DNA from: an uncultured Prevotellaceae bacterium
GTDB taxonomy: Bacteria; Bacteroidota; Bacteroidia; Bacteroidales; Bacteroidaceae
NCBI GenBank assembly: GCA_902790625.1
Contig: CADASP010000007.1
Coordinates: 1-64,000 of the forward strand
Length of the DNA stretch: 64,000 nt
Direction: 5' to 3'
This document shows, piece by piece, positions 38,001 to 53,827 of this stretch. Every line of letters starts with the position of its first letter. The first letter of the stretch is position 1. The notes beneath the pieces were generated by a model that made no database searches, had not been told where the DNA came from, and saw only the letters and a program-made list of their open reading frames with translations. The translations under genes were made by a program, and so were the position numbers.

Positions 38001-39835
38001 CCATCCATCGTGTAGGTGTGGCCGTTGAAGTCTACGGTCAGCCCCGTGGTGTACTTGCCCTGTGCCACTTTGATGCCATTGCCGACGCAGTCGGCCAGCA
38101 GGATGATGGCCGCGCCATCCGCAGCGGCGGCGAAAGCGGCCTCCAGCGTGGCATAGAACTTTGCAGCATAATCGCTGTTCTTAATCATGGCAACAGGGCT
38201 GTAGGTCTCAGTCTTTTCGGCCGAAGTATAAGCGGGGAACACCAAGTTGCCAGCGTACCCGCTATTGTTGTTCATCAGTATGCAGACTTCGTCGATAGCC
38301 TCGATGTAGTTCAACTTGAGGTCAACCTTGGTTTCATCGGTGGGATAGTAAACGCCCATCGGCTCCTGCTTCAGATGGCCGTACATCACATTGCCTGTGA
38401 CGGTGGCAGAGAAATCCACATTCTGGGCAGACTGTACATGTACATAACGCTGCTGCTTGATGCCGTCATTCGTGTCATCCCTGAACGTGTTGTTGGTGAT
38501 AATCAACACAGCACCTGCTACAGGAGTTATCTGGATGGCATCCCAATCGCAATTGCTGAACGAGCAGCCTGTAATGGTGGCTGTGCCTTCAAGACTGTTG
38601 CCATAGATTGCTGACAGCTTACTATTAGCGTTATGTATGCTCTCGAAGTTCACGTTCTGAACACTGCCACCTGCCTTGTTGACATAGACAGCAGAATTGC
38701 CGCTGATGGTCTTACCGTCGCCGTCGAGGGTCACACCGGCTGGTAGATACACACTTCCAAGGTCGCTGAGGTCAGCCAGCAGGGTGATTGTATCGCCGTT
38801 ATTTGCAGCAGCAACGGCTTCTGCAAGAGATGCGTAATAGGTGTCATTGATTTTGGCAACAGGAGGATTACCTTCAAATACGGTGTAAAAGCCATTGTTG
38901 TTGACTAAGCTATAGCCTTCTGCGAGATAGTTAGTTACATCATCTGTGAATGTTCCACCAGAAATGTTAAGGGCATCTTTGCCATTCAAAACGACCACCC
39001 TACCAGTGTAAGTGCCACTCGTCACATTGATGCGAGCACTACTTGCGCCACCTCTGTTGACGATAACGCCTTCGTCACTTCCTGTTGATGTACTGATAAA
39101 GGTGTTGTCTTCAAGCGTGATTGTGCCAGTATATCCATCCTTATAATCACGCAATGCATATTTACCCGTAGTGATTTGGCAATTCTTGATGAGAACAGTA
39201 CCGGTAAAGCCGCCCGAGTCGCCTGTCTTTATGTTGAAGCCAGCCGTGACATTATTGGTTGCAACGATGTTCTCAAACACCACTTCCGAAGACAAATCAC
39301 CTTGAATCAGACGGGTATTCTCAACTGTCAGATTTTTTATGGTTGCTCCGTACAAGGGGCCATCACCAATATTCATGAACCAATTATCAGAACTTGCATC
39401 TGACCCAGTATATGTACAATCTTGTATTGTCAGGTTATGCGGATAGTGTTGAGGCTTAATAGCATCTTTAGCTGCACTATTGACAAATGCTATGTTTTTC
39501 AGAGTAACGGAAGCACCATTAGAGGGACTGCCATTATTGCCACGTAAACCATCAACAATGATTTGTGCATCAACAGTGTAATTTGAAGTTGCATCCTTCT
39601 GCCCGTCAATTGTAAGCTGGAAGTTGGCAACTTCTTGAATCGTCACGGTTTCACCGCTTATGTCGCTAAGCAGGTTGATGGTTTGTGCTCCACCTAAATC
39701 TTTTGCCGCATTGACAGCTTCCTGCAGCGTTGCATACCCTGTGTCCCCAATCTTAGCCACGTCGTCAGCCCATGCAGCAGCTATCGGCAACATGGTAGCG
39801 AAGATGGCCATGAGGAGTTTTCTCATTTTTTTCAT
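32057..39835 (-). CDS. Giant modular surface protein with dockerin-like C-terminus
   Basis: A 2592-aa exported protein (signal peptide to about residue 24). Nine related modules each open with a segment such as VAMIGETGYKTLAAAVAA followed by GDTITLLAD, at about residues 25, 325, 545, 800, 1080, 1530, 1845, 1925 and 2280. The sequence between them is rich in short beta-strand repeats (VTISGGTF, ITISGN-like), as in right-handed beta-helix adhesins or glycan-binding proteins. Modules three and nine share almost identical blocks (GHTYTMDG, VGSTGTQTQAFQLLKDN). The end, about residues 2520-2585, resembles a type I dockerin: GNVNRDSNVDFADVQAIVN and a second Asp-rich loop. Dockerins bind cohesins in cellulosomes, but outside them their partner is usually unknown. 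No catalytic motif is seen. Confidence 0.82.
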   Translation of the reverse strand: MKKMRKLLMAIFATMLPIAAAWADDVAKIGDTGYATLQEAVNAAKDLGGAQTINLLSDISGETVTIQEVANFQLTIDGQKDATSNYTVDAQIIVDGLRGNNGSPSNGASVTLKNIAFVNSAAKDAIKPQHYPHNLTIQDCTYTGSDASSDNWFMNIGDGPLYGATIKNLTVENTRLIQGDLSSEVVFENIVATNNVTAGFNIKTGDSGGFTGTVLIKNCQITTGKYALRDYKDGYTGTITLEDNTFISTSTGSDEGVIVNRGGASSARINVTSGTYTGRVVVLNGKDALNISGGTFTDDVTNYLAEGYSLVNNNGFYTVFEGNPPVAKINDTYYASLAEAVAAANNGDTITLLADLSDLGSVYLPAGVTLDGDGKTISGNSAVYVNKAGGSVQNVNFESIHNANSKLSAIYGNSLEGTATITGCSFSNCDWDAIQITPVAGAVLIITNNTFRDDTNDGIKQQRYVHVQSAQNVDFSATVTGNVMYGHLKQEPMGVYYPTDETKVDLKLNYIEAIDEVCILMNNNSGYAGNLVFPAYTSAEKTETYSPVAMIKNSDYAAKFYATLEAAFAAAADGAAIILLADCVGNGIKVAQGKYTTGLTVDFNGHTYTMDGAMVGSTGTQTQAFQLLKDNKITFKNGTITSEKAKILVQNYSNLTLEGMTLTLNNSSYSSAYTLSNNNGNVVIDGSTINANPAGGFAFDVCRYSSYPSVSVEVKDNSTINGNIEIFASNNDAKDGFGLTLTSGTISGNIVMDATAAAAMAATPDKVTITKSEAFSQAAPEGYKWVCTDGTCALAACEYVAQYGDKKYESLQEALDAAEAENPENIVIELLSDATLDITARANVLSIGTESTQSITINGNNHTLTFNQKNSDWNDVSTANDEVTKLILNDMSITNSGYNNGPWNRHDINFNCAVELNNVTSDKALAFKNDAKLKNVEITETGDVYGIWIQTNGQNVSIDGLTMNVPNGRGIAVKDQYVNSAPAETTTLSITNSTFTTGKKAAILVTAKYGAAIEASGLDIENVAADNVNAVWVDEDLAGQYGDIAFTSEDETMVPEGGVAAYKAALATNGNIDGYYKTFAAAIEAAAAAQSVVLLQDIDLGAESLSISKALTIDGGGQYGITSSATQAVLLTGNGAATFKDVAIVASAGHGIQAGNDDAAYSGQLTLDGATLTVAKRGIRVYNEDTGFGIAVDGSVIQSNVADPTTIYTTGNDAMALSLGTTDGKGYTVTINNSELKGFSYDINSVTSGSNLTVTMTGGKTYGRAALNVWGSNNTFTLDGVEVHGLNNETGSTEAFACIVEYKDATDNNYNINGVTFIANLSEAAISTVGSSATQQMVDLRGTGATMKITGNTTYTCNSEERGGLFYNEGTLETSTVLMDATAKGNLEQLIKKATVASEPDANGLYAVTYVSEVYYYWIANGVEDGENCDFVQPFIEGWLADGEFIRLKKDVTLTGNIACQLESGLFTLTQGDFSITKGDYTVTLKAGVSVVTDKQTDIFSAADAANYTVVETEVNGKYTYSVEELPNVAMIGETGYKTLAAAVAAVPTDGTETTITMIANEIISVSGYALTVAANQNVVLDLNGHQVVGTCETSGTSALIRNLGTLTIQDSSDTNVDGTGDGKLIAGASSTWTWDGTDNYAGSYASNLIRNEGTLVVNSGFLNNISTGSAAYAIDNYSAGKVTINGGKVDAAKASAIRMFYVKGGSLTVNGGTVGHYNSDDNCSYYGIQVMSGENANVSVTGGTIAGEYALYANNTGGSIAVSGGTCDGYVGFGSAGPSDISISGGTFTCWVGTWGSQTGFISGGEFLERVEAVYCAEGFICSEEPNADGYYTIKEGSYVALVGDYGYETFTSAAIDANGKTAITLLADISEGYIMTAGETLMVALNGHTLTVNPPADYDLVTSEPDANGVTTYTLVEKPDVAMIGEIGYKSLKAAVAAAVEGDTITLIADDRSLEDGSELEINKSLTITGAKAENGEPLYTIFGKSTATGTNDIFITGSGTVTLSNLKIKNFGNDANTNPGHAPVYVSTNFTGTVALVNVYISDFNRGGIFLYGGAFEVNDCYIDCANSRSGAFTKGIEIKGSATGTIDNTLICNMERSSNSYMSGGIEVMGSGDVEIKDCTILSNNDSHSSTNATYGIVVAPVGQHDPSGGSLQVTGTMIDCENACLSVEAENYEVTLDDCDFSNYIANWSSSSSTTTSSITINSGSYAKDIYAEAGTIYIKGGEFSNFAPDTEEGASIQISGGTFDAPVLEEYCAPGFIPVEIEEGVYSVKEGAFVAEIDGTKYESLEAAFAAAQDGETITLLADCAGNGIKVPQGKFTTGLTVDFDGHTYTMDGSLVGSTGTQTQAFQLLKDNTIVFKNGTIVADSEGVQMMIQNYSNITLDNMTLDATVGTNSIDYVLSTNNGSTTINDTKITAKEGHTAFDACSGWGGYQSNAVEVTGESVITGLVEISYYGQEGTTPASLALTSGTLNGSLVMAEGADKANVTKGESFEVDAPEGYKWSCENGTCTLVAFKIGNVNRDSNVDFADVQAIVNIILDMVPEGANYDMDASNVDGIVDEDGNYTISISDVTALIKLITSVEEPVVEP

Positions 39836-40156: not shown

Positions 40157-40199
40157 CCACCCCTTGCACCCTCGTTGATAGGAGGGATGCAAGGGGTGG
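40157..40199 (-). terminator. Terminator of the Omp28-like operon
   Basis: Arms 40157-40173 and 40182-40199 (CCACCCCTTGCACCCTC and complement, one bulge). On the minus strand it starts 29 bases after the stop of the last operon gene and is followed by TTTTTAA. Confidence 0.85.
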
Positions 40200-40227
40200 G
40201 GGAGCGCTATGCAAGCAGGAGTGGTGA

Positions 40228-43200
40228 TTACTTCACCAGCTTCTTGCTGCCGTTGTGGATGAGGACACCCTTCTGGGCGTTCTTCAGCTGCTGGCCGTTC
40301 AGGTTGTAGAAACGTTGAACGTTGGACGTTGAACGTTGAACGTCGTCGATGCCACTGATGACGGCCACGGGGGCGGCATTGCTCAGCGGCGACTCGCCCT
40401 CGGCATAGACGGCGGTGACGTGGTAGGTGTGCAGCCCTGAGGCGAAGGCATCAGTAGGATGCTCGAAGCTGGTGGCTTCGGCATCGGCGGTGCCCACGAG
40501 CTGATGGTCGCAGTAGATGTTGTAGCCCTTCAGCGTGAGCGGTCGGCCTTCGTAGCTGATGTCGTCGAGCATGAAGATGCCGCCGTTCTGCGAGTTGCAG
40601 TGGATGGCGAAATACTTGGCTCCTGCGGGCAGCGTGGCGGCGAAGCGTCCGAAGTAGTTCTTCGGGGCCTCATACTCGTCGACGACTTGGTCGGCGTTGA
40701 AGTCGGTCACCTGGTTGCCCGTGGTGCTGTAGCGCACCTCGAAGGTCTCGTTCCACACGCCGGCAAGGCTCTCTGCGTAGATGCGGATGGTCTGCTCCTC
40801 GCCCGACAGTTCGGGCGAGATGAGCCAGTCGTTGTTCTTGTTGCCCGGCGCATTGTTGGCCTTGAAGCAAGCCAGGAACTGCGTGCCACTGTTGGCCTCA
40901 AACTGCGGGTACTGCCTCATCTGTGCCTCGGTGACCCCCGCCTCGCGGAAGTTGAAGGTGAGGAACGCCTGTGGCTGTCCAGCTCCGGGCCACCACAGTC
41001 CGTTGATGCCGGCTGTGGCGCAGTTGTCGCGGTCGTAGTTGCCCCACTGTCCGAAGGTGGACTGGAAGCTGTCGTAACCCTCGAAGCTCTCGGTGACCTC
41101 GTTGCGCCCGCTGACGGGTGTCCACACGAGGGTGCTCTTGCCATCGGCATTGGTGGCCACTAATGAGGCAACGGCCTCTAACTGAGAGGGTACCACCACC
41201 AGCGGCAGCTGCTCGGTGGTGTTGTCGCTGAGGTCGAGGTCGGCGGCATAGTCGACGGTGGCCCACACCAGTGTCTGCTCTGGGTCGGTGGCCTTGGTGG
41301 CGTAGGTGAAGTCGAAACGCTGGCGACCGAAAGGCTCCACGGCTTCATTCTGCTCAAAAGTCTTCACCTGCTGTCCGTTGACATAGATGCTCACGGTGTA
41401 GTCGTTGGCCGTCTGTTCGCCCACATTGTGCGTGGTGACGCTGATGCGTGCTGGCTGTCCGGCGGTGGTGCGGCGCTGCACGTCGGCATAGGCCGTCATG
41501 TTGCAGGCCACTACGTTGCGGAAGTTCACGTCGTCGATGGCGACGAGTCGCAGCTTGGGGTCGTTAAGCTCTGCCACGAACGAGGCGGTGATGTACTTGG
41601 CATCCTTATAGGCCGAGAGGTCGATGGCGTAGGTGATGAATTCCTCGACCTGCATGGTGGCGTAGTCGACGGTGAGCAGCGTGTCGGCGCGTGCCTCACC
41701 ATTCTTCTGTATGGCCACCTTCAGACGGTTTGCGGTGCCGGGGTCGCCAAAGGCGGTGAAAACCAGCTTGGGTGTGTCGGCACCCTCCAGGCTTACCTTG
41801 CCCGACGTGAGTACTGCCCATGCTCCAGCCTTCTCCGACTCGACCGCCGTGAGGCAGTCGTCGCCATCGCTCGACATGCCAGTGTACATCTTCCAGCTCA
41901 CGTCCTGCGTGTTGGAGCGTGTGGCCCAGATGCCTTTCAGCCCAGCGGTGAGGAAATTCTCCATGAAGGGCAATGTGTAGGGAGCACCATAGATGAGGGG
42001 CGCAGCCAGGGCGATGTTGCTCTCGCCCAACTCGTTGAGCGCGTTTACGCCATAGATGACCTGCCCTTGCTGCCCCGTCTGGGCGATGCCCGTCACCTGG
42101 TAGTTCATGTCGCTGATGTTGCTCTTCACCTGTCGCAGCTCGTTGTCTACCACTCCCCACACGTTGTAGGTGAGTTCGTCGGGGTCTACATATCCGTTGT
42201 GCTGACCCTTGGTGGGAGTCTGCCACGAGAGGATGGCTGTGCCATCGAGCTGGTCGGCGAGGGTGACGCTGATGGGCGCGTCGGGCGCATCGGTGCCCAC
42301 ATAGACGGTGGCCTGGGTGGTGAGTCCGGCGCCGGCCTCGTTGAAGGCTGTGACGCTGTAGAGCACCTCGCCGTTCACGGCATCCTCGTCGACGATGGTG
42401 TAGTGCTTGCCCGGCTCAGCATCCTTGATGGTGGTCACCAGGTCGCCATTTTGTCCGCGACGGATGTCGATGGCGGTGAGGCTCTCCAAGGGATTGCCGT
42501 CGTTGGCCACGGTGGGCGCGTCGAAGTCGATGGTGACGATGAGGTCGCCGTCGTCGGCGGGTGTCAGGCGCAGGTTCTTCACGCTGTCGGGGGTGATGAG
42601 CAGCATGCCAGCGGTAATCTGCAGGTTGTCGATGAAGAGCGAGTTCTGCCACTCATTGCTGAGGTCGTGGAATCCAAAGTAGTAGTCGCCCGTTTGCTTC
42701 ACCTTGATTTCGCCTGTCATCTCCATGCCTTGCTGCAGGGATGTCGACACCTCGGTGACGGGTATCAGGAGGTCGTATTGCTGTGGGTCGGTGCCTTGTC
42801 CGCAAGCCACGGCCAGCCGCTGCCGATAGGCGGGCGACACGCCGAAAGCGTCGAACTTGATTTGATAGGCCACGCCCTCCATGAGGTGGAGCGGCGGCGT
42901 GAGGCACCAGTCGTCGATTTGGCCGCCTCGGCTGAAGTCGTGGCGCAAGCGTCCTGTGGTAGAATCGAAGTGGGCGAAGTCCCAGGTGAGACCGTCGCCA
43001 TCGGTGTCGAGGATGGTATAGGCGCTACCCGCATCGGCATCCTCGAAGTCGTCGACGAAGGGCACCATGCGTGCATGGCCATAGCGCACCACGTTGCTGG
43101 CGGTGGTCTCGCACTCCGTGTCGTCTTGCAGGGCCGTCACGCGGTAGTAGTAGCCGTCGTAGTCGGCATCGGTGATGGTCTCGCTGAACTGTGTTCCACT

Positions 43201-44700
43201 GATGCCCGTGGCCACCTTCACGGCGCCGGGATAGCGCACCACGTTGAAGGTCTGCGACCCTGGGTCGGTATATCCGCCCATCTTGCCCTGCGAGGCGTTC
43301 CATGTCAGCGTGTTCAGGCCTGTGGCCTCGTCGCGTGTGAAGACCACGTTGCTGGGCTTGGGTGTGTCGGCGCCAATCCAGGCTTTTGCCCAGTTGCGCT
43401 GTCCTGTCTTGCCATTGGCGGTGAGCTGCACCACCACCTTCTGGCGGCCTGTGCCCTCGGGATAGAGCACGGCAGCCTTCCACTGTCCGGCAGCCCCCTC
43501 GCCCGTGACTGCCTTCTCCTCGTTGTCGTTCACGGTGATGCGGTAGCTGATGTTGCCAGTAAGCTCTTGGCCATCGATGGTGGTGGTGGGCAGGGTGAAG
43601 TTCACGATGCCAGCCGTCCCTTCCGATGCGAAGTTCACCAGCATGTCGGTGAGGGCGGCGGGAGCGTCACCGTCGGGCTCGTCGAGCACATGCAGACAGG
43701 TGTACTCCTCGGCTTCGGGCAGATAGGCGATGAGGGTGGTCTTGCCCGTGGTCACGTCGACCTCGCACAGGCGGCCCATCATCTCCTCGGCTTCCTCGTC
43801 GACCTCGGTGGCCACCATGTAGAGGCGGTCGGTGGTGCGGTCGAAGGTCATGCTCTCGAAGATGGCATAGAAGTTGAAGTCGAGGGTGCCGATGTATGTC
43901 AGGTTGCCCGTGGCCTTGTCAACGCGGCAGAAGCTGCGGTTCTCGGTCACGCCATACATCTCTCCCAGACTGTTGATGGCGAGCATCACGCAGAGCGAGT
44001 CGGAGGAGGTGATGATCTCGCGACTCTGCGTCTCATAGTCGATGCGCATAAAACTCTGTCCGCTGGTGCCTTCGTCTTTCCAACCATAGCAGATGCCCGT
44101 GGTGGGGTCCCAGTCGGCGGCCTTCACGATGAGCGTCTGCTGCGTGCCGCGTGTGCCGTGGTTGCCGGTGGGCTCCCATGTGTCGGTGTCCCACTCGCAG
44201 TACACCCAGTTGTTGCTGCCCAGATAGGGCAGGGGCAGCGACGAGGTGCCGTGCAGCTTATGGTTATAGTAGGCTCCGCGTCCGTTCAGGTCCCAGTCCA
44301 CGGGGGCCATCGTCTCACGCACAAAGCCGTTCTGCTGGCTGAAGCGATAGAAGCCGTAGTCGAGGAGCATGCGCTCGCCGTGCTGGTTATATTGCAGCAT
44401 GCCGCTGAAGGCGAGGGGCTTCTCGCCAGGAGCCACGGGGCGCACAAAGTGGCGTGTGCCGGGCTTCATGCGCAGCAGCTTCGCCTCGTCCATGGGCAGT
44501 GGTATGCCGGTGGCCTTCAGACGTTCCACCAGTCCACGGCCAAAAGCGGTCTCAGTGGCGGCGGGGGCTTTGCTCAGGTTGACAATCTGTGAACCTCCTT
44601 CTGCTGGTTGCAGCCGTTGCCGTGTGGTTTGGGCATGCGAGGGCAGTGCCATCAGCACACATGCCGACAGCACGAGGATAGATGGAAAGTGTTTTTTCAT
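40228..44700 (-). CDS. Secreted cleaved-adhesin/fibronectin-type protein
   Basis: A 1490-aa exported protein (signal peptide ends near PSHAQ), last gene of a seven-gene operon. The N-terminal third has a beta-propeller-like pattern (LYMVATEVDEE, RLCEVDVTTGKTTLI). The middle has fibronectin type III-like repeats (LTWNASQGKMGGYTDPGSQ; SWQTPTKGQHNGYVDPDEL). Three segments resemble the cleaved-adhesin/choice-of-anchor J fold (GDGLTWDFAHFDSTTG, GQIDDWCLTPPL; DNDWLISPELS-like), known from gingipain adhesins. The end is a Prevotella surface tail (FYNLNGQQLKNAQKGVLI) preceded by heptamer-coded VQRSTSNVQR. Probably surface-exposed; the ligand is unknown. Confidence 0.8.
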   Translation of the reverse strand: MKKHFPSILVLSACVLMALPSHAQTTRQRLQPAEGGSQIVNLSKAPAATETAFGRGLVERLKATGIPLPMDEAKLLRMKPGTRHFVRPVAPGEKPLAFSGMLQYNQHGERMLLDYGFYRFSQQNGFVRETMAPVDWDLNGRGAYYNHKLHGTSSLPLPYLGSNNWVYCEWDTDTWEPTGNHGTRGTQQTLIVKAADWDPTTGICYGWKDEGTSGQSFMRIDYETQSREIITSSDSLCVMLAINSLGEMYGVTENRSFCRVDKATGNLTYIGTLDFNFYAIFESMTFDRTTDRLYMVATEVDEEAEEMMGRLCEVDVTTGKTTLIAYLPEAEEYTCLHVLDEPDGDAPAALTDMLVNFASEGTAGIVNFTLPTTTIDGQELTGNISYRITVNDNEEKAVTGEGAAGQWKAAVLYPEGTGRQKVVVQLTANGKTGQRNWAKAWIGADTPKPSNVVFTRDEATGLNTLTWNASQGKMGGYTDPGSQTFNVVRYPGAVKVATGISGTQFSETITDADYDGYYYRVTALQDDTECETTASNVVRYGHARMVPFVDDFEDADAGSAYTILDTDGDGLTWDFAHFDSTTGRLRHDFSRGGQIDDWCLTPPLHLMEGVAYQIKFDAFGVSPAYRQRLAVACGQGTDPQQYDLLIPVTEVSTSLQQGMEMTGEIKVKQTGDYYFGFHDLSNEWQNSLFIDNLQITAGMLLITPDSVKNLRLTPADDGDLIVTIDFDAPTVANDGNPLESLTAIDIRRGQNGDLVTTIKDAEPGKHYTIVDEDAVNGEVLYSVTAFNEAGAGLTTQATVYVGTDAPDAPISVTLADQLDGTAILSWQTPTKGQHNGYVDPDELTYNVWGVVDNELRQVKSNISDMNYQVTGIAQTGQQGQVIYGVNALNELGESNIALAAPLIYGAPYTLPFMENFLTAGLKGIWATRSNTQDVSWKMYTGMSSDGDDCLTAVESEKAGAWAVLTSGKVSLEGADTPKLVFTAFGDPGTANRLKVAIQKNGEARADTLLTVDYATMQVEEFITYAIDLSAYKDAKYITASFVAELNDPKLRLVAIDDVNFRNVVACNMTAYADVQRRTTAGQPARISVTTHNVGEQTANDYTVSIYVNGQQVKTFEQNEAVEPFGRQRFDFTYATKATDPEQTLVWATVDYAADLDLSDNTTEQLPLVVVPSQLEAVASLVATNADGKSTLVWTPVSGRNEVTESFEGYDSFQSTFGQWGNYDRDNCATAGINGLWWPGAGQPQAFLTFNFREAGVTEAQMRQYPQFEANSGTQFLACFKANNAPGNKNNDWLISPELSGEEQTIRIYAESLAGVWNETFEVRYSTTGNQVTDFNADQVVDEYEAPKNYFGRFAATLPAGAKYFAIHCNSQNGGIFMLDDISYEGRPLTLKGYNIYCDHQLVGTADAEATSFEHPTDAFASGLHTYHVTAVYAEGESPLSNAAPVAVISGIDDVQRSTSNVQRFYNLNGQQLKNAQKGVLIHNGSKKLVK
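40312..40343. repeat. Coding heptamer repeat (ACGTTGA)
   Basis: Four 7-bp units plus ACGTCG, inside the end of the preceding gene. On the coding strand it gives DVQRSTSNVQR; three units make one 7-residue peptide period. Confidence 0.92.
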
Positions 44701-44791
44701 AAGTGTTGTTAATTTGTAGTCGTTGAAGGTGGTCTCGCCCTCAACGTTGTTGTTAGTTCTTTCGTTAGTGACGGGTTGCCTTGCGGGGGCA

Positions 44792-46519
44792 TCATCTCAC
44801 CTGCATCTTCACAGTGCGTTGGTGGCCGTCGGCATTGGTCTTGCGCACGATGAGCAATCCTCTTTGCTTCGCATCGAGCTTGCGGCCGTCGAGGGTGAAG
44901 TATTCCGTGCGCTCTTCATTGGTGCTCCCCACGGCGCTGACGCTGTTGGCCTGACTGATGGGGAATCCGGCCTGTTCCACGTTGTCGACGTAGCAGTTCT
45001 TGTTGTTGCTGGGGTCGTCGTTGCTCACGATGGCCACCACCTGCATATTCTCCTTCTGCCATTCGTCGGCCACGCTGAAGGTGACGTGGTGCTCATACTG
45101 GTTGATTTCCCAGTTGATGCGTTCGCCAAAATCGCTGGCAAAGGCGCGGATGACGTGCTTGTGGTAGAAGGCACCCGTGGCCCCCGACTGGTTGACGGCC
45201 TTGACGTCGTCTTCGAGCAGGTAGACGGTGAGCACGGGCGACGGGGCTGTCAGCTCGTCGCGCTTTCCGCTCACCACGACGTGTAGCTGCTTCTGCTCTT
45301 CGTCGAAGTTGGCGCTGATGTTGATGGTGGTGTGGGCCTCGTCCTGCATGCAGAAGCGCATGGCGGCTTCGAGTTCCGACTGCGAGGGACAGGCATGCAG
45401 TTCGGGCCAAATGGGCTTGCGGTCGACCATGATGGCGGGGGCATAGCCCACGCCGAAACGCACGGCCAGCTTCTCGTCGCACGACTTGGTGAGCCAGTCG
45501 GTCTTGTAGCCAGCATGATGGCACACGGCCACGGCGCGGTCTTTGAATTCATCGCGCGAGAGCAACGTGTGCAGATAGCCTGCCACGCGGGGGCAGTTGC
45601 CGCAAGGTTCGGTGGTAAACTCCTCGATGAGAATCTTCTTCACCAAGGCAAACTTGGCCTTGATGGTGTTGTTCGAGGCTGTCTCGTCGGTGCCGTCGTC
45701 GATGGATTGCAGACTGACGATGATGTCGCCGTAGCTGACGGTGGAGCGATTGGGGATTTGGTAGTTCACGGTGGTTTTCTCGCCCCAGTCGAGTGCCACG
45801 TCGAAATGGTGGGCGTATACGTCGTCGCCCATTTCGTATTTCGTCTCAAGGGTGAAGCCTGTGATGGGCTTCAGTCCGTTGTTCACCACGGTGACCTGCA
45901 TCTGGGTCTGCGAAGCGTCGGCAAAGGTGTTGGCCATGGCGGCTGCCAAGCCCAGGTCGTAGTTGGGCAGGTTGTTGCCCTCCACCACGGCCTCCACGCT
46001 GAGGATGCCAGCCTCGCTCATGTCTTGCCAGCGAGCGTCGTGCCCCAGCTGCACCCAGCAGGCGTTCTCCAGCGGGCTGCCCACCACCGACAGTGCTGCC
46101 ACCTCGGCTTTCTGGCGATAGCTCAGACCGACGTAGAGGCCCTGCCCTTGGGCGATGGTGAGGGGTTGGCTAAGCTCGGCCTCGTTCCATCCCTTGGCCA
46201 GCTTGGGCGTGGTCTTGGTGGTGATGATGGCCTCGGCGATGTTGTCGCCGGTGAGCGATGTGCGCACCCACAGACGTAGGCTGTCGACGTTGACCTTCGA
46301 GGCCAGGGCGCCGCGCAGGGCGGTGATGGTGCTGCCCTCGTAGCTGGCCAGCATGTCGGCTGGCAGATAGATGGCAGCACTCACCCACGCCTTGCCCTCG
46401 GTGCTGATGCTGCCCTTGTCGGCAGCCTCGCCTCCGCAGTAGCCTAAGTGTACGGTGCTTTGAGCCTGCATGCCGATGGCCACGAGGGCCATCAGCAGCA
46501 GGGATAGAATGTTTTTCAT
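44792..46519 (-). CDS. Omp28-like outer-membrane protein with CGNC motif
   Basis: A 575-aa exported protein (signal peptide ends near GMQAQ). Residues about 290-480 match the Omp28 family, which has a thioredoxin-like start: LIEEFTTEPCGNCPRVAGYL with the CXXC at about residue 303, then AVAVCHHAGYKTDWL and YAPAIMVDRK (a cis-Pro-like position). The N-terminal half is a beta-sandwich region with VQLGHDARW. The C-terminal tail (YFTLDGRKLDAKQRGLL) is the Prevotella type, without the heptamer repeat. It starts 4 bases after the stop of the upstream 1137-aa gene. Omp28 of Porphyromonas is a surface lipoprotein; an enzyme role has not been shown, so redox activity is inference. Confidence 0.82.
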   Translation of the reverse strand: MKNILSLLLMALVAIGMQAQSTVHLGYCGGEAADKGSISTEGKAWVSAAIYLPADMLASYEGSTITALRGALASKVNVDSLRLWVRTSLTGDNIAEAIITTKTTPKLAKGWNEAELSQPLTIAQGQGLYVGLSYRQKAEVAALSVVGSPLENACWVQLGHDARWQDMSEAGILSVEAVVEGNNLPNYDLGLAAAMANTFADASQTQMQVTVVNNGLKPITGFTLETKYEMGDDVYAHHFDVALDWGEKTTVNYQIPNRSTVSYGDIIVSLQSIDDGTDETASNNTIKAKFALVKKILIEEFTTEPCGNCPRVAGYLHTLLSRDEFKDRAVAVCHHAGYKTDWLTKSCDEKLAVRFGVGYAPAIMVDRKPIWPELHACPSQSELEAAMRFCMQDEAHTTINISANFDEEQKQLHVVVSGKRDELTAPSPVLTVYLLEDDVKAVNQSGATGAFYHKHVIRAFASDFGERINWEINQYEHHVTFSVADEWQKENMQVVAIVSNDDPSNNKNCYVDNVEQAGFPISQANSVSAVGSTNEERTEYFTLDGRKLDAKQRGLLIVRKTNADGHQRTVKMQVR

Positions 46520-46523
46520 GCGT

Positions 46524-49500
46524 TTATTTCACCAGCACTTTCTTGCCATTAATGATGTATAGGCCCTTGGTGCGTTTAGCGTTGAGGCGGCGACCCTGAA
46601 GGTCGTAGATACGTTGAGCGTTGAGCGTTGAACGTTGAACGTCGTTGATGCCAGTGACGGGGCCACCGTCGTATTCGAGTGTGAAGACGGTGCTGGGAAC
46701 CACTAAGGAGAAGTCGAGCGGCAGATAAGCGGTGCCGGGCTGCAAGAAGTACTTGCCCTGTGCCCACCATCCTGTCTCGTCGTCGATGTCGTTGGGGTCG
46801 CAAGCGGGCACGAAGCCAAACTTGCCGTTGCTCACGTTGTTGCCCAGCACGAAGGGATAGAAGAATTCCTCGGCTTCTTCATCCTCGGGGAAGGTGATGA
46901 ACGATGCGTCGACCAGCCAGGGGTTGGCCACCAGGTCGTTGTTCTCCAGCGGAGCCACCTCGCCAACGGCCACGGGGATGTCGAACGTCAGCGGGTCGCC
47001 AGATGTTCTGCGGGCCAAACTGGCGGCAGAACTGCGCAGCAGCACACCCGTGTTGGCCGGAACCTTGTCCACCTTGGTGAGCACCACGCCCGTCATGTTG
47101 TAGCGTGTGCCCCATGGTGTCTCCACGGCTTCCAGCTGCTTGGTCACGGCGTAGGCCTCCACATCCTCCACATCCGTGAAGTCGAGTGCCTGGTCGCAAG
47201 AGAAGAGGGCGAAATATGAGGTGCCGTCGGTGAGGTCTGACGATGTGCTCACGCTCACAGTGTTGTTGATGCCTTCGGTGAAGGTGATGTTCACGTTGAG
47301 CACCACAGCCTTCTCGTCGGCATTGACGAAGCCCCACTTGGCCACGTAGGTGTCGCCTTCCTGATAGCTGTTGTCGATGGCGCCCATATAGTCAATGATG
47401 CCGCTGGCAGGATTGCTGATCTTTACGCATACGCCAGGAGCTGTTCCGTTGAGCTCAGCCCATAGGCAGGCGTCGCCGTTGGCATCGCGCCAACCGTCGG
47501 TGGTGTTCTCCACGAAATTGCCATCGGTCACGTTCACAATATATTGAGCGGCATCGCTGATGCTGATGCCCAGGGCGTTGGCCACCTCATCCACGGGGAA
47601 GGTGGCCGTCTTGGCCTCGTAGGCTGTGGCGGGCAGCATCTGCACGGGCACGTCGATGGTGGCGATGATCTCGGGTTTGTACTCAGGCTGCTGCACCTCG
47701 ACGAAGGTGACGTTGATGGTGTAGCGCACGGCTTTCTCGCCGTTCACCAGCACCCACTTCACGGTGTAGGTCTTTCCCACTTCGTCGGCGCCGTTCATGT
47801 CGTAGAAGGTGAAGGCTCCATCATTGGCAAGAGCCTCGAAGAACTTCACGCAGATCTTGGTGTCGGCACCCCACTTGGTGGGATTGCCCTCGCCGTCGAA
47901 CCAGCCGTCGTAGCCGTCGGCAGCACTGTTGTCGGCATTGAAGAGGATGCGCTCGCCATCGGGCTTCTCAATGTAGAGCATGTCGGTGCTCAGTGCATCC
48001 ACACCGAGGAAAGCCTTGGCCTCAGTGAAGTCGGCGATGGCTTCAGTGGGTGTGTAGCCCAGCTTCGTGGGACGCTCATGGTCGATGGTGAGGTCGAGTT
48101 CCTGTGGCTGGGGCTGCTCCTGTCCGTAGTAGGGCAGCTGTGCCTTGGTGGCATTGACAATGAAGCCTGTGGCGGGGTCGATGACCAGTGCTGCCACATA
48201 CATGTTGTCGCGGCGCAAGGCGTTCTTCAGCGATACAGGGGTGGTGGGTAGCGCCATGGTGCAGGTGACCTCGGTGGGCTGGGTGGCCGAGTAGGTCTGT
48301 CGCTCAATCTGGTTGCGGCCGTTCTTATAGCTACTGGCCAGCGCCACATCGTTGAAATAGAGTCCGGTGACCGAGCTCTTCCCGTTTTTGCCACCCTGGC
48401 ACCAGTCGGCCAGGTCGGGTCCAGCTTGTGCAGCGGGGTAGCTGGCATAGTTGTTCAGCTGCGTCCAGCCTGAGCCTGTTCCTGTGAGGCTGTCGCCGAT
48501 GAGCACCATCTCCACGTCGTATTCCGAAGCATCGAAGAGTGGGTCGATGACGGCTGTGGCCACCACCTGTGTGGAGTCTTCGTTCCATTGGCCGCTGATG
48601 GTGACGCCGACGAAAGCGGGCTGCGCCAGCAGCTGGTCGAGGAGTTGGCTGATGCCGAAGTTGTCGCCATTTGCGCCATAATAGGGGTCGACCTCGCCCA
48701 TGCGGTCGAGCATGCACGACGGTGCCCCCGAGAAGTTGAGACGGGCGTATTTGTTGGCAGCGATGGTCATGGCATCTTGCGAGACGGAACTATATTGGTG
48801 GATGGCCACCTGCACCAGCTGGTCGCCATAGCGCTGGCGCATCATCTCCATGCCCACGATGCCACGGGGACACCAAGGGCAGGTGAGGCCGGTAAACTCT
48901 TCGACGGTGACTCGGCGCTGGATGAGCTTGGTGGTGGTGATGGCTTGCCCGCTGATGGTGGCATTGGCTGGGTCGTTGTCCTCGCCATTCACCTTGGTCA
49001 CGGTCAGGCTGTATTCTTGTGTGCATTCGATGGGTGCGGCTTCGAAGAACACTTCCACCTCACCCTTGTCGCCGAAGACCACGGGACTGGCCAGCTCGGC
49101 ATGCTGCTCGGACTGTGCCTCGCCATCGATGCTGATGACATAGTCGATGCTCTGCAGGTCGGCAGTTCCTACGTTGATGACTGAGAGTGTTTGGGTTTTA
49201 CCGATGCCAAAGGGGATGATAATGTTGCCAATGGCTTGCGGCATGGCCTTGTTCTCTGCGAAATCGCCTTCGACGATGGCCTGAACGCTCAGGTTGCCAT
49301 AGCTGTTGCCCATGTCGTAGTAGCTGACGCCTTGGCCCAGGTTGCCATAGATGTAGAGGTTGTACATGTCGCTGCCCGCGTCGACGCACGACATGGGATA
49401 GTTCGACGCCGTCTGCCTGTAGTCATAGCCCATCAGCACTCCGTCGTAGTCCTGCAAGTTGAGGGTGACGGGGGTGGTGAGAGTGAACTCGTTCCATCCT

Positions 49501-49937
49501 GCTTTGTTGGAACTCACCGCTTGGCTGACGATGGGGTCTAAAAGGTTGCCTCCCTGGAAGGGGATGATGTAGATGTGCGAGATGGTGGTGGATTGTGCCA
49601 GTCCGACGCGCATCTTCACCACTTGGCCACCATCGAAGGGCGCAATGACGCTGTAGGGCAGCTCCACGTAGGCGCCCAGTGTGCCAGGTACGCCCGTCAC
49701 GCCCAGGCCCTGATTGGAGGTGGCCACTTGGTCGGTGGTGTATGGGCCCATCACGAGTTGGTTGTCGGCCAGCTGGATTTTGTTGGCCGGAGCTCTGAAT
49801 CCCTTAGGCACCAGCGAGGTGGGGTAGGGGTTCTGTTGTAGTGTGCCGGCGTCGGCTCGCTTGGCGCTGGCAATCTGCGCATTAGCAGAAATGGCTACCA
49901 TCAGCATGGCTGCCATCGAAAGTAAGAATTTTTTCAT
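46524..49937 (-). CDS. Large Omp28-like protein with CPWC motif
   Basis: A 1137-aa exported protein (signal peptide ends ISANAQ). An Omp28/thioredoxin-like domain begins near residue 340: TVEEFTGLTCPWCPRGIVGM with CPWC at about 351, QVAIHQYSS and GAPSCMLDR. The N-terminal 330 residues form a beta-sandwich region like that of the neighbouring 575-aa protein. Residues about 625-930 contain two related repeats with the pattern of WFDGEGNPTKWGAD and GWRDANGDACLWAE, possibly carbohydrate-binding-like modules of unknown type. The tail is YDLQGRRLNAKRTKGLYI preceded by heptamer-coded DVQRSTLNAQR. Its gene lies 22 bases after the 225-aa gene. Confidence 0.8.
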   Translation of the reverse strand: MKKFLLSMAAMLMVAISANAQIASAKRADAGTLQQNPYPTSLVPKGFRAPANKIQLADNQLVMGPYTTDQVATSNQGLGVTGVPGTLGAYVELPYSVIAPFDGGQVVKMRVGLAQSTTISHIYIIPFQGGNLLDPIVSQAVSSNKAGWNEFTLTTPVTLNLQDYDGVLMGYDYRQTASNYPMSCVDAGSDMYNLYIYGNLGQGVSYYDMGNSYGNLSVQAIVEGDFAENKAMPQAIGNIIIPFGIGKTQTLSVINVGTADLQSIDYVISIDGEAQSEQHAELASPVVFGDKGEVEVFFEAAPIECTQEYSLTVTKVNGEDNDPANATISGQAITTTKLIQRRVTVEEFTGLTCPWCPRGIVGMEMMRQRYGDQLVQVAIHQYSSVSQDAMTIAANKYARLNFSGAPSCMLDRMGEVDPYYGANGDNFGISQLLDQLLAQPAFVGVTISGQWNEDSTQVVATAVIDPLFDASEYDVEMVLIGDSLTGTGSGWTQLNNYASYPAAQAGPDLADWCQGGKNGKSSVTGLYFNDVALASSYKNGRNQIERQTYSATQPTEVTCTMALPTTPVSLKNALRRDNMYVAALVIDPATGFIVNATKAQLPYYGQEQPQPQELDLTIDHERPTKLGYTPTEAIADFTEAKAFLGVDALSTDMLYIEKPDGERILFNADNSAADGYDGWFDGEGNPTKWGADTKICVKFFEALANDGAFTFYDMNGADEVGKTYTVKWVLVNGEKAVRYTINVTFVEVQQPEYKPEIIATIDVPVQMLPATAYEAKTATFPVDEVANALGISISDAAQYIVNVTDGNFVENTTDGWRDANGDACLWAELNGTAPGVCVKISNPASGIIDYMGAIDNSYQEGDTYVAKWGFVNADEKAVVLNVNITFTEGINNTVSVSTSSDLTDGTSYFALFSCDQALDFTDVEDVEAYAVTKQLEAVETPWGTRYNMTGVVLTKVDKVPANTGVLLRSSAASLARRTSGDPLTFDIPVAVGEVAPLENNDLVANPWLVDASFITFPEDEEAEEFFYPFVLGNNVSNGKFGFVPACDPNDIDDETGWWAQGKYFLQPGTAYLPLDFSLVVPSTVFTLEYDGGPVTGINDVQRSTLNAQRIYDLQGRRLNAKRTKGLYIINGKKVLVK
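46611..46644. repeat. Coding heptamer repeat (ACGTTGA)
   Basis: Four units (ACGTTGA, GCGTTGA, GCGTTGA, ACGTTGA) plus ACGTCG near the 3' end of the 1137-aa gene. Confidence 0.9.
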
Positions 49938-49959
49938 AGGGTTGTTTGTTTAGTTGGTG

Positions 49960-50637
49960 TTATGGATTGATTCTCTTAATGACACGGCCATCGGCCAGGC
50001 GCACGATGCGGAGACCGTGAGAACGTTGAACGTTGAACGTTGAACGTTGAACGTCGAGACGGCGGCCCTGTAGGTCGTAGACACATTGAACGGTGGGTGT
50101 TGAACGTTGAACGTCGTTGACATCGGCGTTGTCGGCATATACGAAATTGATGGTCACGCTGGGTCCATAGCCCACGACGTTGTTGCCAGCCTGTTCCATG
50201 CCGAAGAAATTCTTGGTGATGTTGAAGTAGCGGATTTCGAGCGTAGCAGTCCAGCTGCCGTATTTTCCTTCCTCCAGCATCCACTCGGTCATGATGTCTT
50301 GGTCGTACTCGCCGCTGAGGACGCTCTTGGCCGAGTAGCCGCTCTCGGCCAGCGTCATGCAGTTGCCGAAGGCGCAGGTCTGCCACTCGCCGCTGGGCTT
50401 CTGGCTGATGTCCTCCCACATGCTCACGGCGGCTTTCTCGCCCGTCATGTTCTTTATGTGCAGTGGTACGACCATTTGCAGCTGGTCGTTCACTTTGTTG
50501 ATGGTGATGACGGAGCCGTCGGGGACGATGTTGCCCTGCTCGTCGATGAACTGGAATGTTTTAATCTTGTCGTCCTGTGCCCACCCGCTGGCAGCGAGGG
50601 TGGCAAGGGCGAAAATCAGTGTAAAAAATCTCTTCAT
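49960..50637 (-). CDS. Small secreted protein with repeat-coded tail
   Basis: A 225-aa exported protein (signal peptide MKRFFTLIFALATLAASGWAQ shortened to the first 21 residues). The mature part (about 22-170) is a beta-rich domain (VPLHIKNMTGEKAAV, TATLEIRYFNITKNF) of no family I recognise. The last 55 residues hold two heptamer-coded stretches, DVQRSTPTVQ and DVQRSTFNVQRS, around YDLQGRR, so the tail has expanded twice. It is the fourth gene of the operon, 25 bases after the lipoprotein gene. Confidence 0.75.
   Translation of the reverse strand: MKRFFTLIFALATLAASGWAQDDKIKTFQFIDEQGNIVPDGSVITINKVNDQLQMVVPLHIKNMTGEKAAVSMWEDISQKPSGEWQTCAFGNCMTLAESGYSAKSVLSGEYDQDIMTEWMLEEGKYGSWTATLEIRYFNITKNFFGMEQAGNNVVGYGPSVTINFVYADNADVNDVQRSTPTVQCVYDLQGRRLDVQRSTFNVQRSHGLRIVRLADGRVIKRINP
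50023..50116. repeat. Two coding heptamer repeat blocks (ACGTTGA)
   Basis: Block one, 50023-50056: four perfect ACGTTGA units plus ACGTCG. Block two, 50083-50116: four imperfect units plus ACGTCG. They are 27 bases apart and both lie in the 3' end of the 225-aa gene. Confidence 0.92.
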
Positions 50638-50662
50638 AAGTTGATGGTTTGGTTTGTTTCTT

Positions 50663-51571
50663 TTATTTTGTTTTCAGCTTGCGGCTCACTACCTGCAGCA
50701 CACCTTCGCTGTCGTTGCATACGAATGCCACCACGCTCAGGTCTTGCGGTTTCCAGCCCTCTTTCAAGCTGGCCTTGTAGTGATGCTCCACGATGTTGTC
50801 GCCCTCAGCACCCCTGAGTGCGATGTTGTCGCCGCTGGTGCTGTTGATGGCAGCGCGCAGCACGTGGTTGTGTACATAGTTGTTGATGATGGTTCCCATG
50901 CTGTCTTGCGGGGCCACGATGTTGTCTTCGGTGAGCCACACCACCAGCTTGCCGTTGGCAGTGGCGTCGGGGCGTGTGCAGAGCACCTTCACGTCGATGT
51001 CGGCCGTGGAGCTGTTGGCAGCTTTGCAGGCTTTCACACGGATGTCGAGTGCCGCCTCTTGGGGGAGCACATATTGCAGCGCCTGCATCCAGAAGTCCTT
51101 GTTGAGCACGCGCTCGCCGCCGAAGTCGAAGCGGTTGAAGAGTCCGGCCGGCTTGTAGGTCAGCTTCCACTGGTTGTAAAGCTCGTTGCCCAGCTCGTTG
51201 CCCAGTCCTTCCGGCTCCATGATGCCCTGAGCTTGCGAGTGGATGGCCACGGGCACGACGAGCGCTCCGTAGAGTTGCTGGAAGTCGTGGATGAGCTTGC
51301 TGGCTTCTGGGCAGTTGGGGCAGCGCTGGCCGGTGTGGTCCTCGATGAGCACGCCATGGGGCACCACGGCGATGGGAGCGTCGTAGAGTTCGTCGGTGTC
51401 GTCGACGACAATGGTGTCGATGGGTGTGGCCGGCTCCACGTAGATGAGGCGGTCGGCCTCGTCGATGTTGGAGCACGAGGGCAAGGCTGCGGCCAAGCCG
51501 CAGCATGCGGAGAAGCCGACGAGGAGCCTGGCGAGGCGGCGGGAGCTGATGAAGATATAGCGTAGGTTCAT
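50663..51571 (-). CDS. Omp28-like lipoprotein with CPNC motif
   Basis: A 302-aa lipoprotein (lipobox LPSC, Cys near residue 33) of the Omp28 family. The thioredoxin-like start is LIEDHTGQRCPNCPEASKLI, with CPNC near residue 84; VVPVAIHSQAQGI follows. It is shorter than the two other Omp28-like products here and lacks their N-terminal sandwich and surface tail, so it is probably anchored by lipid only. It lies 7 bases after the DUF6029 gene. A role in handling disulfides of exported proteins is possible but unproven. Confidence 0.82.
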   Translation of the reverse strand: MNLRYIFISSRRLARLLVGFSACCGLAAALPSCSNIDEADRLIYVEPATPIDTIVVDDTDELYDAPIAVVPHGVLIEDHTGQRCPNCPEASKLIHDFQQLYGALVVPVAIHSQAQGIMEPEGLGNELGNELYNQWKLTYKPAGLFNRFDFGGERVLNKDFWMQALQYVLPQEAALDIRVKACKAANSSTADIDVKVLCTRPDATANGKLVVWLTEDNIVAPQDSMGTIINNYVHNHVLRAAINSTSGDNIALRGAEGDNIVEHHYKASLKEGWKPQDLSVVAFVCNDSEGVLQVVSRKLKTK

Positions 51572-51578
51572 TTTCGGT

Positions 51579-53267
51579 TCAGAAATTGTAGTTGTAGGAG
51601 AGGGTGAATCCCTTCTGCGCGGGGATGATGCGGCACACGCCGCCCGAACAGTTGTAGCCCTCGCGTGTGCGACAGTAGCCCAGCTGCAGACGGTGGGCGT
51701 TGAGGTTGTAGGTGACGAGTGCCTGATAGTAGTGAATGTGCGACGAGCCGCAGTTGTACATGTCGCTCACGGTGAACATCCAATGGGGCACCAGCGACAG
51801 CTCGGCCAGCCCGTACACCCAGTCGCCCTCGTCCTGCTTTGTCTGCAAGTACTGTGCCTCTACGCGCAGGGTGGTCTTGGGCGAGAACTGATACAGGCCG
51901 TCGGCCACGAAGATGTTGCTGTGGATGATGCCGCCCGCCTCGCCGCGCACCTTGGTGATGTTGAAGCGCTGGTTCATATACATCAGGCTCAGCTTGAACT
52001 CCTTCGAAAGCTTGCGGGTGAGGGTGATGTCGAGGTCCTGGTAGTAGGTGTCGTCGCCCCACTTGAAGAATTTCGAGGCGTAGCCATCGGTGGCGGCCAG
52101 TGCCATCTGTCCTCCCAGTGCCTTGCGCTGCTGCCCGTCGACAAACTGTCGGTCAATGGCGCGCACGTAGCTGTAGTTCACCTTCAGGTTCATGCCATAG
52201 CGTCCGCCGAGGGCGGTCTTGCGTTTGAAGTTGTAGCCCAGCTCGGCCTGGTAGGCCCACTCGCCGTCGGCCAGTTGCGTGCCGTAGGGGTAGAGTGCTG
52301 CGAGGGCGTAGGTGTGGTCTTGCGTGAAGGCTGGCAGATGGTTGATGGCCGACGCGTTGATGTCGTACTCGCGGCGCAGGCTCTTCGATGCCATGTTCTC
52401 CGAGCGCTTGGCTTGCAGCAACAGGCTCAGGCCACGGCGCGACCATGATGTGGAGAGCATGGCGGCACTACCTTTCTTATATATATAGCCGTTGGCATAG
52501 GATGGGTCGGCCGTCTTCTGCGCATATTCGGCCAGGATGCTGAAGTTGCCCTTGTTGAGTTGTGCGCGCAGGTCGAATGCGTTCACATATTCAGGCAGGT
52601 TCAGCTTGTGGGTCATGTCGGTGAGGATGTCTTCCTGGTCCTCGTGCTTGTTCACCCACGATGCTCCCAGCATCAGTCGTGTGTCGCTCTGTTGCAGTGC
52701 TGGCACCAGCTCGTCGATGTTCACCTCGGCATCGGCTCCGCTCACGAAGCTCTTGTTCCAGTCCCAGTATCGGCGTTGCTTGCCGCCCAGTGCTTTCAGG
52801 GTGATGCCAGGCATGGGCTTCAGCACCAAGCGCCCTCCGAGCAGCGAGTTGTCGATGCCGAGCATGCGCTCCTCGTATGTGCGCAGGATGAACCCTGAGC
52901 CAAACTGCTCGTAGAAGGTGCCCACTGTGAGCTCGGCCATGGTGGCTCCGTCGGCGCGGCGCCCTAAGCGTCCCTTGGCATAGAAGTGTGGCACGCCCCA
53001 TCCCTTGAAGTCGGGCTCGAATCCGGGTAGCGGGTGCTCCAGGTATTCCAGTCGTGCGCCGGCCTCGAAGTCGCGGTGCTGTAGCCGCAGGTCCAGGTAG
53101 GTGTTGGTCTGGAAATCCTCGGTCTTCTTGGCGCCCGTCTTGTCGTCGCTTTGTGGCAGCAGCATGTCGGTTTGCAGGCTTCCGCTCAGCGTCAGCTGTC
53201 GGTCGCTCTGGGCGGTGGCAGCGAGTGCCACCAAGCATGCTGCCAATGCGGTGAGTGCTCTCTTCAT
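51579..53267 (-). CDS. DUF6029 outer-membrane barrel protein
   Basis: A 562-aa exported protein of the DUF6029 family. After the signal peptide (ending AATAQ) the sequence alternates beta-strands with aromatic girdles and ends in SYNYNF, a C-terminal Phe typical of outer-membrane barrels. Segments such as GFEPDFKGWGVPHFYAKGRL and KTALGGRYGMNLKVNYSYV fit a porin-like barrel of perhaps 18 or more strands. The function of the family is not known. ATG 53267 follows the TlpA-like stop by 2 bases; a GTG at 53270 is less likely. Confidence 0.8.
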   Translation of the reverse strand: MKRALTALAACLVALAATAQSDRQLTLSGSLQTDMLLPQSDDKTGAKKTEDFQTNTYLDLRLQHRDFEAGARLEYLEHPLPGFEPDFKGWGVPHFYAKGRLGRRADGATMAELTVGTFYEQFGSGFILRTYEERMLGIDNSLLGGRLVLKPMPGITLKALGGKQRRYWDWNKSFVSGADAEVNIDELVPALQQSDTRLMLGASWVNKHEDQEDILTDMTHKLNLPEYVNAFDLRAQLNKGNFSILAEYAQKTADPSYANGYIYKKGSAAMLSTSWSRRGLSLLLQAKRSENMASKSLRREYDINASAINHLPAFTQDHTYALAALYPYGTQLADGEWAYQAELGYNFKRKTALGGRYGMNLKVNYSYVRAIDRQFVDGQQRKALGGQMALAATDGYASKFFKWGDDTYYQDLDITLTRKLSKEFKLSLMYMNQRFNITKVRGEAGGIIHSNIFVADGLYQFSPKTTLRVEAQYLQTKQDEGDWVYGLAELSLVPHWMFTVSDMYNCGSSHIHYYQALVTYNLNAHRLQLGYCRTREGYNCSGGVCRIIPAQKGFTLSYNYNF

Positions 53268-53269
53268 CA

Positions 53270-53761
53270 CTACTTCAGCAGTTCTCTTACTTTCTCAATC
53301 AGTTCCGTCTCGGCCCCGTCGGTATATCCCGTGTGGCGATAGACAATTTTGCCCTTTCCATCGACGATGACGGTGTAGGGCATGGCTCCCGAGTTGTTGC
53401 CCAGGGCTTTCGAGAACTCGTAGTTGGGGTCGAGCAGCACGGTCTCGTATTCCCATCCGTGGTTGTCAACGAGGGGTTTCACCTTGTTGGTGTTGTGTGC
53501 CTGGTCGTTGCTCACGATGATGATTTTCAGGCCTGTCTCTTCCTTCCAGTCGTCGTAGACCTCGGCGATGGCGTCGAGTTCGCGGTTGCAGGGCTTGCAC
53601 CACGTGGCGAAGAAATCGATGATGAAGGGCTTGCCACCGTTCTTCAGTTCGGCGGTGTTGATGGTCTTGCCGTTGATGTCCTTCAGGCTGATGGTGGGCA
53701 GCTGGGCCATGACCGTGCAGGTCATCACCAGCATGCAAGCAGCGAAAAATAATCTTTTCAT
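53270..53761 (-). CDS. TlpA-like thiol-disulfide oxidoreductase
   Basis: A 163-aa exported thioredoxin-fold protein, first gene of the operon. The active site is FFATWCKPCNREL with CKPC near residue 55; the cis-proline is in GAMPYTVIVD near residue 130. Signal peptide at residues 1-19 (MKRLFFAACMLVMTCTVMA), so it works in the periplasm, or at the outer membrane if anchored. TlpA-like proteins reduce disulfides or supply electrons to partners; here the partners may be the CXXC-bearing Omp28-like products of the same operon. Promoter just upstream at 53797-53827. Confidence 0.93.
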   Translation of the reverse strand: MKRLFFAACMLVMTCTVMAQLPTISLKDINGKTINTAELKNGGKPFIIDFFATWCKPCNRELDAIAEVYDDWKEETGLKIIIVSNDQAHNTNKVKPLVDNHGWEYETVLLDPNYEFSKALGNNSGAMPYTVIVDGKGKIVYRHTGYTDGAETELIEKVRELLK

Positions 53762-53796
53762 TTGATATAAATTGAGTTAAGTTTGAAATTTGTCGG

Positions 53797-53827
53797 CAAA
53801 ATTACTGTTTTTTCTTCAAATGACAAA
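53797..53827 (-). promoter_or_regulatory. Promoter of the seven-gene operon
   Basis: On the minus strand, TTTG (53827-53824), a 19-base spacer and TAATTTTG (53804-53797), followed by CCG. It leaves a leader of about 30 bases before the TlpA-like ATG. Confidence 0.75.

Follow-up and report, generated by a model that had tools for sequence, protein, structure and literature searches.

What function, if any, is shared by seven closely spaced genes that join a thioredoxin, a predicted outer-membrane barrel and several secreted cysteine-containing proteins? The question is raised by positions 40157-53827 of a 64,000-nucleotide stretch (contig CADASP010000007.1, assembly GCA_902790625.1) from an uncultured Prevotellaceae bacterium, referred to here as the window. 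An earlier note made from the sequence alone had described an operon of seven genes on one strand, and open reading frame (ORF) calls gave identical values: all seven lie on the reverse strand, with gaps of 2, 7, 25, 22, 4 and 91 bases from gene 1 to gene 7. Comparison with related genomes shows that this operon extends, in its own lineage, a module that is conserved in Bacteroidales. The core of this module is a secreted TlpA/ResA-like thioredoxin (gene 1, 53270..53761), DUF6029, a predicted outer-membrane barrel of ~24 strands (gene 2, 51579..53267), and an Omp28 outer-membrane lipoprotein (gene 3, 50663..51571), usually followed by a PorA-family protein with a FimH-like N-domain (gene 4, 49960..50637) and an Omp28-like CxxC protein (gene 5, 46524..49937). 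Membership in the module is very probable overall; the assignment of genes 1-5 is highly confident, gene 6 (44792..46519) probably belongs, and gene 7 (40228..44700) is an accessory.

To measure conservation of the core, each of 119 Bacteroidales genera was represented by one genome; 68 of these genomes carried DUF6029, mostly as a single copy. At 40 order-level loci (L031-L070), the TlpA gene was directly upstream of DUF6029 in 33 and the Omp28 lipoprotein gene directly downstream in 33, with both in 28. At another 40 loci from the window's family and genus, both genes flanked DUF6029 in 34. The clustering that the earlier note had proposed to look for is present across Bacteroidales, and the operon has strongly withstood the note's refuting condition that homologues never cluster in other genomes. 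The Omp28 lipoprotein was also searched for independently in all 119 genomes, with matches of at least 126 bits counted as strong: 60 genomes had both genes, none had Omp28 alone, four had DUF6029 alone and 55 had neither (Fisher p 1.3e-29), and 51 of the 60 pairs lay within 500 bases of each other. This co-occurrence largely refutes the idea that the operon is a loose grouping of surface proteins with no common function, such as an adhesin or metal-binding set. Genes 6 and 7, which are variable accessories, would suit a loose operon and take away the equal standing that the earlier note had given to all seven genes, but conserved order, near-perfect joint presence and the gene fusions described below make it highly improbable. 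Nothing was found in support of metal binding.

We next consider gene 4, which the earlier note had listed as a small secreted protein of unknown family. Judged by its predicted fold and by profile comparisons, it is PorA. The AlphaFold model has an N-domain with a predicted local distance difference test score (pLDDT) above 90, and the best Foldseek match to the model among 350,542 PDB chains was 6kjk, a crystal structure of the PorA N-domain from Porphyromonas gingivalis (E 3.5e-6). The two structures align over 127 residues with a Z score of 14.6 and a root-mean-square deviation of 2.5, and the next entry reaches Z 8.9. FimH-type lectin domains rank after 6kjk, and PorA itself has been reported to resemble them (PMC7712824). 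A profile of 29 N-domains from gene 4 relatives returned 6kjk as its first PDB match (E 4.9e-4), and a local hidden Markov model built without 6kjk recovered it at E 2.2e-9, with a clear gap above noise. The single gene 4 sequence had no match in the PDB, a seven-sequence profile hit a sorting domain only, and general domain-profile scans gave no match to gene 4. The relatives share a cysteine motif such as NG-x-x-Q-x-C-F-P-x-x-C; in gene 4 the pair is C88/C93 (CAFGNC, 50359..50376, reverse strand), which is invariant in the 29 sequences and aligns with CFGQC of 6kjk. Genome searches identified gene 4 as the sole PorA copy in its genome.

The known PorA is that of Porphyromonas gingivalis (PG2172/PGN_0123, the source of 6kjk), which likewise has a FimH-like domain and a cysteine pair. 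There too Omp28 is a neighbor, with PorA being PG2172 and Omp28 PG2173 (PMC9722745); this gene order rests on the locus tags, because P. gingivalis was not identified among the searched genomes. PG2174 is known as an uncharacterised vesicle protein. The window's own genome also has PorX and SprA, of the type IX secretion system (T9SS). The differences are that PorA of P. gingivalis has been studied alone, whereas here it tracks DUF6029 and not the T9SS, and that the tail of gene 4 falls below the TIGR04183 cut-off. This tail, a short Prevotella-type one, had no match to TIGR04183 or PF18962; relatives of gene 4 at L067, L113 and L206 pass TIGR04183. At L127, L130, L134, L149 and L184, the PorA genes have a dockerin-like DVNGDGEVNIADV end in place of a sorting tail.

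To what is PorA tied in evolution, the secretion system or the module? Among 120 genomes of the window's genus, DUF6029 was found in 53, PorA in 52 and the T9SS translocon protein SprA in 113. PorA and DUF6029 were both present in 52 genomes and both absent from 67; PorA never occurred alone and DUF6029 did so once (p 1.6e-33). They therefore agree in 119 of 120 genomes, the exception being G166, in which the DUF6029 gene is cut by a contig end. The link held within SprA-positive genomes (p 1.7e-31), while PorA and SprA showed no association in this sample. PorX was over its cut-off in 110 of the 120 genomes irrespective of PorA or DUF6029, and nearly all of the 67 genomes without DUF6029, none of which has PorA, retain the T9SS translocon and PorX. 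Shared ancestry alone is insufficient as a cause, since independent contrasts on supported branches of a PorX tree (101 genomes) agreed in 13-14 of 14 cases (p about 2e-4), the disagreement being the truncated G166 in half the pairings. Physical linkage is common: of 120 family and genus loci, 94 have a PorA gene on the DUF6029 strand, 88 of them within 3.5 kb downstream. It is also insufficient alone, because in six cases (L073, L074, L075, L079, L080 and L084) PorA lies off the DUF6029 locus, elsewhere in the same genome, as read from contig coordinates of draft assemblies whose gaps may hide some linkage. These data show that in evolution PorA depends on the DUF6029 module rather than on the translocon of the T9SS.

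Genomes without SprA add two observations. G128, in the genus sample and 99% complete, lacks SprA, a true PorX, DUF6029 and PorA, and probably represents complete T9SS loss. A strict dependence of DUF6029 on the T9SS is ruled out by G059 and G113, which carry DUF6029 without SprA.

Which proteins of the module does PorA work with? At nine loci, a PorA domain and a CxxC Omp28-like part are encoded in a single ORF. In G059, DUF6029 is immediately followed by a gene for a single 689-residue lipoprotein with the order Omp28-PorA-Omp28, in which the Omp28 part has CINC, the PorA-like domain (E 3.3e-6) has CAGGQC and the second, Omp28-like part has CGYC. At the sequence level, these fusions directly indicate that PorA works together with thioredoxin-like Omp28 proteins, and G059 indicates that it can do so without a T9SS. 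Searching 393 genomes with the 6kjk sequence gave weak matches only. Through them, a PorA was located immediately after TlpA-DUF6029-Omp28 in G449, and others next to Omp28-like CxxC genes in G481, G532 and G438. At L207, L209 and L212, PorA adjoins CxxC Omp28-like proteins away from DUF6029, which makes the PorA-CxxC pair a second conserved unit.

Gene 2 matches PF19494 along the full-length profile (627 bits, positions 1-538), in agreement with the DUF6029 barrel of the earlier note, and its AlphaFold model (pLDDT 83.4) has about 24 strands. The loop before the last strand holds an invariant motif, CSGGVCR in gene 2 (residues 540-546; 51630..51650, reverse strand). CxGGxC is present in 160 of 160 orthologues and is followed by R in 158; in 154, its distance to the C-terminus is 16 residues. 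Because the motif falls between the last two strands of the model, the usual topology of outer-membrane proteins would place it on the outer face of the barrel. The best structural matches are the 24-strand usher pores FimD (Z 17.7) and PapC (Z 16.9); OccK porins score nearly as high (Z 16.1), and the match therefore reflects barrel size, not kinship.

An usher-like function is one candidate, in which DUF6029 would be an exporter pore for PorA with Omp28 as its lipoprotein partner. Such a pore would explain why mutants in T9SS translocation still expose PorA at the surface (PMC7712824), and it would suit both the FimH-like domain of PorA and the restriction of PorA, in the genus, to genomes with DUF6029. 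The parallel with the FimD/FimH chaperone-usher pilus does not extend further: gene 2 has no usher Pfam match and lacks the plug and the N- and C-terminal usher domains, the operon contains no chaperone or pilins, and PorA homologues bear T9SS tails. DUF6029 was rejected as an outer-membrane usher, an exporter of PorA is quite unlikely, and the adhesin assembly considered in the earlier note is left with a weak echo in the FimH-like domain and the usher-like barrel size.

Barrel-plus-lipoprotein pairs are also common transporters in Bacteroidetes. DUF6029 could accordingly be an export or uptake porin for polysaccharide or another solute, with Omp28 as a binding lipoprotein and PorA and the CxxC proteins as passengers. 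A polysaccharide role was suggested in a survey of outer-membrane polysaccharide export (OPX) proteins, in which some export barrels resembled DUF6029 (PMC9603273). The examined DUF6029 loci have no recurrent gene for polysaccharides, TonB or transport, and the strict coupling to PorA and the invariant cysteines would be left unexplained, which makes a solute porin very unlikely.

The remaining core members carry cysteine motifs. As the earlier note had stated, genes 1, 3, 5 and 6 carry CKPC, CPNC, CPWC and CGNC, respectively. Gene 1 is AhpC-TSA/TlpA-like (PF00578, 73.5 bits), with CKPC at 53588-53599 on the reverse strand and WCKPC in 138 of 150 orthologues. It scores below the curated cut-offs of the ResA, DsbE and TlpA models (67.6 bits versus 170 and lower), and "TlpA-like" holds for the PF00578 superfamily but not for these equivalogs. 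Gene 3 is a full member of the Omp28 family, a long-known antigen: it matches PF11551 and reaches 208 bits with NF033782 (cut-off 150). Its thioredoxin-like CPNC lies at 51311-51322 (reverse strand). The CxNCP and the lipobox cysteine are conserved in orthologues, and CxxC is present in 123 of 123 Omp28 lipoproteins, mostly as CxNC followed by P. DsbD genes directly follow the cluster at L067 (3655-5625) and L113 (15313-17256), both full-length with an N-domain, a membrane domain and a thioredoxin domain, and another DsbD lies nearby on the opposite strand at L127.

TlpA-type proteins usually reduce the disulfides of specific partners. The CKPC protein and the DsbD genes adjoining the cluster at L067 and L113 resemble the reducing pathways of the DsbD-TlpA/CcmG and ScsB types; the difference is that the set of thioredoxin proteins here also includes an outer-membrane lipoprotein and secreted proteins beside a barrel. 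We propose, as the best explanation and at about even confidence, an outer-membrane thiol-disulfide module that handles PorA and its partners. In it, the DUF6029 barrel and the Omp28 lipoprotein would be joined in one outer-membrane complex. A DsbD-type reductase in the inner membrane would charge periplasmic TlpA, which would pass thiol or disulfide equivalents to Omp28. Together with the surface CxxC proteins, Omp28 would then establish or restore the redox state of two conserved cysteine pairs, CxGGxC in the outer loop of the barrel and C-x(3-4)-C in PorA, and the complex would fold, hold or switch PorA at the surface. The action of a thiol relay on PorA itself is, in our estimate, evenly balanced. 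Of the functions offered in the earlier note, surface thiol exchange is the one favored, in view of the invariant cysteine pairs of barrel and PorA, DsbD at two or three loci and the PorA-thioredoxin fusions. We know of no described case in which thiol equivalents are transferred to the outside of an outer membrane.

The main rival draws on much of the same evidence. TlpA and the Omp28-like proteins might serve folding quality control, as isomerases or reductases for disulfides of the DUF6029 barrel and of exported proteins, in the way that Dsb proteins serve LptD, with neither a surface relay nor signalling. The invariant cysteine pairs in both DUF6029 and PorA, the CxxC motifs of TlpA and the Omp28 lipoprotein, and DsbD beside some clusters would all be accounted for. 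The LptD-LptE pair is an instructive analogy, being a large barrel with an obligate lipoprotein partner and conserved cysteines whose activity needs correct disulfides; Omp28 differs from LptE in having a thioredoxin-like CxxC, and no sequence relation is claimed. Against quality control, several of the CxxC proteins are large and secreted and have relatives with T9SS tails, and so would act outside; the fusion of PorA to CxxC proteins goes beyond what a folding helper needs; and a dedicated system for two disulfides seems lavish. We regard quality control as possible, though less likely.

Several observations weigh against a thiol module acting on PorA. DsbD adjacency is limited to two directly adjacent loci and one nearby, and TlpA is not adjacent, according to ORF calls, in the T9SS-less genomes G059 and G113. 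The cysteines of PorA may form a plain structural disulfide. Co-location with cysteine proteins is also no proof of a relay, because thioredoxin folds are common.

Could such a module report to the cell interior? In P. gingivalis, PorA acts upstream of PorY and the PorXY-SigP pathway, and its deletion leads to loss of SigP and PorY and to lowered T9SS expression; the authors concluded that PorA must act on PorY through additional factors (PMC7712824). PorA is also part of a Sov-PorV-PorA complex (PMC8754138). In species in which PorA feeds PorXY-SigP, the module would be a candidate for connecting the surface with the inner membrane. This extension fits the P. gingivalis genetics but is doubtful. 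Its reach is limited, because many Prevotella without PorA keep PorX and SprA, and PorA is therefore no general requirement for PorXY signalling. A complete relay across the outer membrane, in which DsbD and TlpA drive Omp28 and DUF6029 while PorA and the secreted CxxC proteins report or set surface redox, coupled to PorXY-SigP control of secretion, is unlikely.

The distal genes vary more than the core. The earlier note had counted three Omp28-like proteins, and the family assignment stands for genes 3 and 6 and is weak for gene 5, a large secreted protein with 46.6 bits to NF033782 (cut-off 150) that does not reach PF11551. Gene 5 is the usual fifth member of the cluster, with CxxC homologues coming after PorA in most genus loci. 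Gene 6, a second Omp28-like secreted protein, passes PF11551 (64 bits) and scores 83.4 bits with NF033782; genes 5 and 6 are thus larger secreted relatives of the Omp28 lipoprotein family below the NF033782 cut-off. Further Omp28-like proteins are encoded elsewhere in the window's genome (G000:C27:394-909 and G000:C1:119482-121257). Gene 7 is a Cleaved_Adhesin/choice-of-anchor J surface protein (NF038128, 100 bits), as the earlier note had it, and few relatives carry a similar gene (e.g., L079, L119 and L132). None of genes 5-7 matched TIGR04183, the type A T9SS sorting domain, over its cut-off, and their tails resemble a shortened version; relatives of gene 5 at L067 pass it (30.7 bits, cut-off 23). 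The heptamer (TTCAACG)n occurs 17 times versus 0.4 expected and is confined to the linkers that precede the C-terminal tails in genes 4, 5 and 7 (40313-40342, 46612-46641, 50024-50058 and 50098-50113), where it encodes VQRSTFN-like stretches. These repeats may be traces of shuffling or slippage in the linkers of the sorting tails.

The single promoter and single terminator of the earlier note were both recovered on the reverse strand. The promoter, TTTG-N19-TAATTTTG at 53797..53827, was read directly from the sequence and is a perfect match to the Bacteroidetes consensus; the pattern occurs twice in the window versus 0.04 expected. The intrinsic terminator (40157..40199) is a hairpin of -34.2 kcal/mol (z -6.8), matched by none of 200 shuffles and followed by TTTTT. 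Generic sigma-70 promoter and terminator scans were not above shuffles and were uninformative. Downstream of the terminator, 32057-39835 encodes a 2592-residue repeat protein with a dockerin-like end, a separate transcription unit. At the order level, a frequent upstream neighbor of TlpA (L031, L032, L033, L035, L040, L042, L043 and others) is a ~326-residue protein that starts with LYPLKFKPIFKDKIWGG and resembles mannose-6-phosphate isomerase.

In the literature searched, DUF6029 is named in a single paper, and nothing connects PorA with TlpA, DUF6029 or CxxC Omp28-like proteins, or with any module of thioredoxins. The module around PorA is real, widely conserved and undescribed as a whole, and PorA itself is known but poorly explained. 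Its co-occurrence with DUF6029 places PorA in the DUF6029 module rather than in the secretion machine as such. The locus names candidates for the mediators between PorA and PorY, namely TlpA, DUF6029, Omp28 and the CxxC partners, and supplies a hypothesis for the roles that DUF6029 and Omp28 may play.

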